From contig NZ_SRPF01000004.1 in assembly GCF_004785685.1 (NCBI RefSeq), positions 124,001 through 188,000 on the forward strand: 64,000 nucleotides of DNA, given 5' to 3'. Origin of the DNA: Marinobacter confluentis. GTDB lineage: Bacteria > Pseudomonadota > Gammaproteobacteria > Pseudomonadales > Oleiphilaceae. A program made the position numbers and the translations under genes. Within the stretch, counting starts at the first letter, position 1, and each line of letters begins with the position of its first letter. Shown in pieces: positions 30,755 through 47,474 of this stretch. Below the pieces are notes generated by a model. That model did no database searches and was not told where the DNA came from. It was given only the letters and a program-made list of their open reading frames with translations.

Positions 30755-30796
30755 TGTTCACTCCTGTTTAATTTGAAAGTATTCCGATGGTACGCC

Positions 30797-30904
30797 GAGC
30801 AAGAGTAGAGGGCCTTTCAGAACCGTGCGGAGCCATGGATGGCGGAGCCCGAGCGTACACGGACGTATTTACAGCGTGTTCTGGAAGGCCCTCTACTCTT
30901 GCTC
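30797..30904 (+). repeat. Structured dispersed repeat, copy B
   Basis: Arms 30797-30823 and 30878-30904 are complementary over 27 bases with a single G-T pair. The core 30824-30877 carries GCCATGGATGGC (30832-30843) and GTACACGGACGT (30855-30866). It lies between the arsC-arsR stop and gapdh. The strand showing the GGA loops is plus, opposite to both flanking genes. Confidence 0.85.
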
Positions 30905-30915
30905 CGCCCCCTCAA

Positions 30916-33896: not shown

Positions 33897-33934
33897 CGAC
33901 CAACGTGTTGCGGCCTGCAACGCAGATTGGGGCG

Positions 33935-34041
33935 CAGGTTGGGAGGGATGGTTTAAAACTGTGCGGAGCCATGGATGGCGGAGCCCAAGCGTCACATGGA
34001 TGTGCCGAAGGAGCGTGTTTTAAACCATCCCTCCCAACCTG
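33935..34041 (+). repeat. Structured dispersed repeat, copy C
   Basis: Arms 33935-33959 and 34017-34041 are perfectly complementary over 25 bases and can extend imperfectly outward. The core 33960-34016 carries GCCATGGATGGC (33968-33979) and CACATGGATGTG (33993-34004). It lies between the convergent stops of psiE and uvrD, on the psiE sense strand. It is followed by CTCTCCCCC, not by a T-run. Confidence 0.88.
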
Positions 34042-34056
34042 TGCTCTCCCCCAAAC

Positions 34057-47243: not shown

Positions 47244-47270
47244 AAAATCATTCTCCTGATTCTGATTGAG

Positions 47271-47380
47271 CGGATTTGGAGGGGGGCTTTCAAAAATGTG
47301 CGGAGCCATGGATGGCGGAGCCCAAGCGCCACATGAATGTGCCGCAAGGAGCGTGTTTTGAAAGCCCCCCTCCAAATTCG
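47271..47380 (+). repeat. Structured dispersed repeat, copy D
   Basis: Arms 47274-47295 and 47356-47377 are perfectly complementary over 22 bases, and extend by three more pairs with one G-T. The core 47296-47355 carries GCCATGGATGGC (47305-47316) and CACATGAATGTG (47330-47341). It lies in the divergent gap between DUF2237 and the helicase gene, so it ends neither gene. Confidence 0.88.
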
Positions 47381-47474
47381 CCAGCACCCAACGAGCGGGC
47401 CAAACGAATTACTAGGCAAACGCAAGTATGTAGGAGCGCTATCTGAACCGCCAATTGCTCCGTACAATACCGCC

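Follow-up and report, generated by a model that had tools for sequence, protein, structure and literature searches.

The intergenic locus at the centre of this analysis (copy C), with a PsiE-like gene on one side and a uvrD-like gene on the other, holds one of four copies of a short dispersed element in the window, i.e., the whole 64-kb stretch of DNA analysed here. Each copy has an outer helix of 26–28 bp, locus-specific in sequence but paired, that encloses two small hairpins (Table 1). An earlier note on this DNA had described four loci with a shared core and near-perfectly pairing arms, and both observations hold: the bounds given by a covariance model (R1) place all four where the note had them, and their arms pair over 26–30 bp with one or two mismatches. 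The R1 matches in the window are exactly these four copies (106–114 bits), with no further copy at E ≤ 1. In copy D the second loop reads GAA instead of GGA, one GGA having been lost. Elsewhere in the window, an Rfam match to the cspA thermoregulator lies on the minus strand at 349–784 (78.9 bits, cut-off 78).

Table 1. The four copies of the element in the window, their surroundings, and the parts of copy C.
Feature	Position	Strand	Remarks
Copy A, whole element	1260–1373	minus	5' of crcB-like gene, same strand; R1 113.9 bits
Copy B, whole element	30794–30907	plus	R1 113.3 bits
Copy B, surroundings			gapdh-like gene (−) and LMW-phosphatase/arsR-like gene (−) on either side; copy B antisense to both
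Copy C, whole element (outer helix and two hairpins)	33930–34046	plus	R1 114.1 bits
Copy C, surroundings			PsiE-like gene (+) on one side, uvrD-like gene (−) on the other
Copy C, left arm, 28 nt	33932–33959	plus	pairs with 34017–34044
Copy C, right arm, 28 nt	34017–34044	plus	pairs with 33932–33959
Copy C, hairpin 1, GCC-AUGGAU-GGC, first CANGGANG site	33968–33979	plus	from comparison of copies, not the best single fold
Copy C, hairpin 2, CAC-AUGGAU-GUG, second CANGGANG site	33993–34004	plus	from comparison of copies, not the best single fold
Copy D, whole element	47267–47384	plus	R1 106.3 bits; flanked by DUF2237 gene (−) and UvrD-like helicase gene (+)

Beyond the window, a simple core pattern with at most two mismatches occurs at 52 places in the genome examined (3.77 Mb, 103 contigs), while a reversed control pattern occurs at none. 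The 52 copies extracted comprise 51 of these places and one copy with three mismatches; in 49 of them the arms pair over 24–31 bp with 0–5 mismatches and the inner end is constant within one base, the exceptions being one copy with unrelated arms and two with a small hairpin element inside hairpin 2. The R1 model, trained on those 49 copies from the same genome, yields at least 79 genome-wide matches at E ≤ 0.001 (74 with at least 66 bits) among the 150 of 1111 first-look candidates that were scored; one of the 79 duplicates another match on the opposite strand, one is an armless core and three more are insert-bearing copies. The genome holds about 78 copies—well beyond the few that would have told against a dispersed family, though short of the hundreds that had been projected from the window. 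A wider set of 250 copies was obtained from 340 pattern matches (up to three mismatches) by removing 90 under an arm-pairing threshold, and it includes orthologous loci, such that its copies are not all independent. Among matches with at most one core mismatch, 241 of 256 pass the arm threshold, and counts of arms and loops thus describe paired-arm copies; the other 15 places, with no or poorly paired arms by that threshold (some hold inserts), lie outside the 250.

The pairing of the outer helix far exceeds that of shuffled sequence. Copy C has a folding energy of −71.4 kcal/mol against −39.1 ± 3.7 in shuffles (z −8.6), an excess in stability that is due to the outer helix. Across the 49 own-genome copies, 96.5% of paired cells are filled by pairs, as opposed to 68.3 ± 0.7% in 500 shuffles, and sliding the partners by 1–3 columns brings pairing down to 36–47%. 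Against the same number of shuffles, cells changed on both sides number 536 versus 146 ± 9, the covariation score is 0.742 versus 0.189 ± 0.009, and 33 of the 40 pairs in the RNAalifold consensus show two-sided changes. The earlier note had staked the structure on covariation in a larger alignment, and covariation is what the larger alignment holds. The excess of pairing over expectation is high over most of pairs 0–27 from the core, low at helix positions with conserved sequence, and nil from pair 29 on; likewise, in the 250 copies (register set on pairs 0–25), pair 25 is Watson–Crick in 97% and pair 29 in 28%. Pairwise identity averages 0.43 for the arms, 0.93 for the initial part of the core and 0.83 for the core as a whole. 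The arms, described earlier as sharing no sequence between loci, do have some preferences: an inner AAAA, a GGG near pairs 17–19 and a TTCC tract. Beyond its ends, the flanks contain neither a second helix nor a consistent direct repeat; weak motifs stand at a fixed distance (tAnCTCnnAAGTnnG upstream, CnCCAAA downstream), with log-likelihoods of 154–328 versus 28–54 in shuffled flanks (each control consisting of three shuffles, run from fewer starts than the actual flanks).

The two strands of this helix are not equivalent. With the arm register chosen from Watson–Crick pairs only, the arms of 252 copies comprise 6238 Watson–Crick pairs, 174 G·U, 26 A·C and 114 other combinations. Outside the helix the reverse applies (A·C 405, G·U 190), so the G·U bias in the arms is not compositional. 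It recurs, as G·U:A·C, in the own genome (33:8), in two relatives (30:7 and 30:3) and in the remaining loci (81:8), it has the same direction in every gene context (e.g., 47:6 in copies antisense to both neighbours), and it is found in 24 rows outside the model training (24:3, or 20:1 minus one insert-bearing row). Because equivalent strands would yield G·U and A·C equally, the asymmetry argues that a single strand of this orientation is selected, which rules out a DNA cruciform acting on both strands. Judged from these pair counts, RNA of the modelled strand is the most likely acting molecule; as G·T wobble is tolerated in single-stranded DNA too, a structure in one DNA strand keeps some possibility.

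Within the helix, conservation centres on the hairpin loops. Two CANGGANG (Rsm/CsrA) sites are present in 241 of the 250 paired-arm copies, 23–25 nt apart in 239 of these 241, as compared with 2 of 12,500 shuffled cores that hold two such sites. The hairpin 1 site belonged to the search pattern; the hairpin 2 site did not, and it is present in 241/250 copies, its first N varying (T 102, G 87, C 44, A 9) while GGA is constant. The strict form of the site occurs at least once in 219/250. All 23 more distant own-genome copies, which lie outside the training set and were found by a covariance model trained on the same loop, keep both CANGGANG sites, and their first hairpins display ten different uninterrupted stems. 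The first hairpin, which had been called invariant, is so among close copies and not among these distant ones.

The folding of the inner hairpins is a separate matter from that of the helix. Hairpin 1 contains a GGA/GGA internal loop, and the inner stems show two-sided changes between copies (RNAalifold consensus, shuffle test). Without the arms, the cores in the window show no gain in stability over shuffled sequence (z 0.4, 1.4, −0.4 and 0.8 for the four), and copy B is the only one of the four whose bare core has both hairpins as its best energy fold. When the arms of copy C are included, the best fold merges both sites into one hairpin, i.e., the sites can pair mutually. We infer the two inner hairpins from the two-sided changes between copies together with the turnover of the hairpin 1 stem.

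These loops resemble known targets of CsrA-family proteins. The consensus of RsmE contacts is given as A/UCANGGANGU/A, and the SELEX consensus for CsrA is quoted as RUACARGGAUGU (both in PMC6849547); nearly all paired-arm copies have two sites of the A/UCANGGANGU/A type close enough together for one dimer to span. The own genome has one CsrA match, a canonical protein close to the solved homologue 1vpz (E 9.9e-31) that matches 2jpp too. CsrA is found in 59 of 61 genus genomes and in 53/53 of good quality, and its presence, being near universal in the genus, does not discriminate.

The earlier note gave no family name for the element, yet Rfam TwoAYGGAY (RF01731) has the same architecture: a long outer stem enclosing two hairpins whose loops are of the AYGGAY type. 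At cut-off, Rfam assigns no family to the element in the window or in 20 own-genome loci. Copy C aligns with the full model length (1–168) at 35.9 bits, below the cut-off of 43, and in a relaxed search TwoAYGGAY is its best match by score (E 1.6e-4); microRNA precursors are similar (best 6.4e-5), and since long-hairpin microRNA models reach such E-values on copy C, the E-value alone says little. In the own genome the TwoAYGGAY model has 8 matches at E ≤ 0.001 (best 42.0 bits). Among 21 genus genomes, 18 match at E ≤ 0.001, and six exceed the 43-bit cut-off with seven matches (best 49.8 bits), as opposed to 0 of 14 control genomes. Order-wide, 24/145 genomes match, in 17/91 genera, 13 over the cut-off. 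The R1 model matches all 22 genus genomes (own included), from at least 12 to at least 61 times each where at most 61 candidates were scored, and it matches in 9 of the 16 genera of the family; the simple core pattern matches in 55 of 61 genus genomes (0–61 places each). In another genus of the order (G210 and G237, L328–L338), the arms are nearly identical among the 11 copies read, so locus-specific arms are not a trait of the whole family; these copies may have spread more recently, or their arms may be maintained in another way. Head-to-head pairs in two further genomes consist of copies with different arms.

TwoAYGGAY was described in 2010, in a table that rates it “probably RNA, probably not cis-regulatory” (Weinberg et al. 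2010, PMC2864571), and was proposed to bind CsrA in 2014 through a motif search (PMC4333381). Its helix was lengthened or improved in a 2020 paper and in Rfam 15, the energies of its two hairpins are discussed in a preprint, and two tandem GAs are reported in one stem. The window element shares the long outer stem and the two AYGGAY-loop hairpins but is shorter (123 bases of copy C matched versus 168 model positions), and the published descriptions, in their accessible text, contain neither some 78 copies nor locus-specific, co-varying arms. A known element thus explains the architecture, as the earlier note had allowed that one might, but not the copy number or the turnover of the arms.

Of the characterised CsrA-type RNAs, CsrB/CsrC and RsmX/Y/Z come from a single locus or a few, each with several sites. 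They have in common with the window element tandem GGA hairpins and CANGGANG-type sites, whereas the element is present at dozens of loci, with two principal loop sites at each. RsmZ (RF00166) and RsmY (RF00195) are each over the Rfam cut-off in 0 of 21 genus genomes, although such sRNAs may still exist. In marine gammaproteobacteria, proposed CsrA-type sRNAs include Aln1a–c of Alteromonas macleodii, at three loci (PMC5864184), and CsrR1/CsrR2 of Alcanivorax, at two (PMC9788540); in the accessible text on either, no dispersed family like the present one is described. Nor did we find, in the open-licence literature, an account of a CsrA-type RNA family scattered in many copies over Marinobacter genomes: the RNA architecture is known, while dozens of dispersed copies with kept CsrA-type sites and in-step stem turnover were not found described.

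How the arms evolve was followed locus by locus between two genus genomes (G036 and G118). Removal of one non-element and one sister copy reduced 45 candidate orthologous pairs to 43, and 12 further removals (three chance matches, seven loci with changes of arm length or register, and, each in one species, one with an unmatched right arm and one without paired arms) left 31 loci. Their 806 pairs comprise 651 unchanged, 108 changed from one Watson–Crick pair to another and 47 changed otherwise. Arm divergence is 0.163 versus 0.151 in the flanks, which include some coding sequence (rank correlation 0.57, 31 loci), and transitions to transversions stand at 49:59 in two-sided changes versus 326:359 in the flanks (p 0.68). 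Nine loci with little flank divergence hold seven other changes and one two-sided change, against 40 and 107 in the remaining 22 loci (p 0.001, for a split chosen after seeing the table). This scarcity of two-sided changes at low divergence indicates that changes arise on one side and acquire their match on the other afterwards.

Plain compensation via G·U predicts an excess of transitions and a rate slower than that of the flanks; neither is seen, so template switching probably participates. Published work proposes that RNA hairpins arise and are maintained through template switching (PMC8794818), and spacer inversion is a known product of it (PMC8604942); at one locus, E36_30 (L288) in G036 and L117 in G118, the element is inverted in place between the species. 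Two orthologous copies are counter-cases to template switching, one with one arm kept and the other arm different, and another missing bases of one arm. The earlier note had offered selection on structure or a mechanism that rebuilds the arm. The former is supported by G·U over A·C, by the two-sided changes at orthologous loci and by the hairpin 1 stem turnover; the latter finds support in the form of template switching, through the flank-like transition:transversion ratio and divergence and the in-place inversion. Two other sources of the arms were rejected. Ectopic conversion from a sister copy is not backed, as no two copies share arms beyond column-shuffled expectation in a subset of 50, 38 and 43 copies of three genomes; inverted duplication of the target at insertion fails because same-locus arms differ between species in both halves and there are no consistent target repeats.

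Taken as sequence evidence, these patterns make it probable that the copies are a dispersed set of CsrA-binding RNAs of the TwoAYGGAY kind, with arms that turn over under RNA selection. This reading joins the outer helix and its co-varying pairs, the strand asymmetry, the conserved loops and the canonical CsrA gene, and would entail transcription of the copies, CsrA binding and titration, and template switching. Specifically, a rigid 26–28-bp helix would hold out a pair of short hairpins that each bear a CsrA/RsmA site (CANGGANG), and the spacing of 23–25 nt between the sites would suit a single CsrA dimer, which has two RNA-binding faces; the roughly 78 loci may then jointly bind and titrate CsrA, or recruit CsrA to the transcripts in which they lie. 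Arm sequence would be free provided that pairing holds, with RNA-level selection matching one arm's mutations in the other, probably aided by template switching from one inverted arm to the other as the DNA is replicated. As arm mutations would be matched locally, each locus would end with its own arm.

The placement of the copies bears on a different explanation, in which the element is a cis-acting RNA cassette of the ERIC/REP kind, its helix a signal for RNase III/E processing or for stabilisation and its GGA loops incidental or secondary. A near-perfect helix of 26–28 bp is a good substrate for double-strand nucleases, and its constant length fits such a role, as does a bare core that folds no better than shuffles. 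Copies lie near genes, with median distances of 28–135 nt depending on context. By a simple gene caller, the 250 copies (partly mutual orthologues) fall between same-strand genes in sense (81) or antisense (59) orientation, between convergent (64) or divergent (30) genes, or at edges (16), and 145 of the 234 classed copies are directly downstream of a same-strand gene. Such a context does not back a 5' leader (riboswitch-like) element, as copies are not mainly in 5' leaders. The 59/234 copies antisense to both neighbours, however, have the same G·U bias, one element is inverted in place between species, and the CANGGANG loops outlast the turnover of the hairpin 1 stem, although a helix-only signal needs no loops. 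We therefore regard a cassette of this kind as unlikely.

REP/BIME, ERIC and MITE repeats are short, palindromic and intergenic, and reach tens of copies, with stems that keep one sequence between copies. The window element resembles them in all but the last respect: its stem sequence differs per locus while the pairing is kept. The copies could nonetheless be a selfish or formerly mobile MITE- or REP-like repeat, with hairpins read as single-stranded DNA by a transposase and arms taken from the insertion target. Copies are dispersed and intergenic (at least 61 scored matches in a genome), weak conserved motifs stand just outside the helix, small elements are nested in three copies, and copy B, present in the window, has no R1 match in 20/20 orthologous regions examined. 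Yet the arms change in step at fixed orthologous loci, and hence are not frozen copies of a target; apart from the weak flank motifs there is no consistent target duplication and no outer or terminal repeat, and copies of the three-genome subset share no arms beyond chance. Two between-species absences resemble deletions that left part of an arm. A 67-base core query has no match at E ≤ 0.01 in plasmid and phage collections, where four viral contigs share an 18-mer only, armless. A selfish or formerly mobile repeat accordingly seems quite improbable.

A reading in which mutation alone is at work, with template switching evening out inverted repeats of any kind and the copies left as relics without function, agrees with arm divergence and a mutation spectrum equal to those of the flanks, with the one in-place inversion and with the proposed role of template switching in the origin and upkeep of RNA hairpins (PMC8794818), but is very improbable given that a strand-symmetric process would give equal G·U and A·C (174 versus 26 seen) and that helix length and loop sites are conserved.

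If the copies are CsrA-binding RNAs, as we favour, the orphan Rfam family TwoAYGGAY gains a concrete, testable candidate function, and the view that CsrA is titrated by a single dedicated sRNA or a few of them would fail in this group. Going by architecture, the family can rise to some 80 copies on a chromosome while constrained at the RNA level, which sets it apart from ordinary repeats, and the many copies across many related genomes make the co-evolution of paired bases, and the shares of selection and template switching in it, directly measurable. We more tentatively raise the possibility of a distributed CsrA buffer, in which dozens of two-site decoys have replaced or joined the few Csr/Rsm sRNAs, CsrA activity reads out chromosome-wide transcription and the stems turn over fully while staying near perfect; were this so, the stems would be a natural replicate experiment in compensatory evolution, with template switching filtered by RNA selection.

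Some own-genome copies are interrupted or mismatched. A hairpin-rich element is inserted in a hairpin loop of three (hairpin 2 in L016 and L021, hairpin 1 in L380), and the insert in L380 carries one more CANGGANG-type hairpin. L002 (minus strand, G000:C1:124810-124927) has a normal core with arms that are unrelated or half-matching, as does the G118 orthologue in L107; recombination between two copies, or decay, is perhaps the cause.

Copies that lie close together are mostly head to head. Those less than 400 bp apart have this orientation in 28/28 pairs (some orthologous), and in 14/14 of the own genome, where element ends are at least about 40 bp apart; in other genera, pairs within about 450 bp, counted by eye among the matches listed, comprise 13 head-to-head, one tail-to-tail and one tandem. 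The simplest cause of this arrangement would be a shared start region of two outward transcripts. The minimum spacer of about 40 bp suggests a promoter of the element's own upstream, a candidate not backed by the composition profile, in which no promoter-like A+T peak was found upstream of the helix. After the stem, the U-run of an intrinsic terminator is absent, the right flank being C-rich and then A-rich, with T at or below 33% over the first 30 positions. Some head-to-head spacers (L008, L202 and L014) hold a second palindromic repeat of the GTCGGATTA...TAATCCGAC type.
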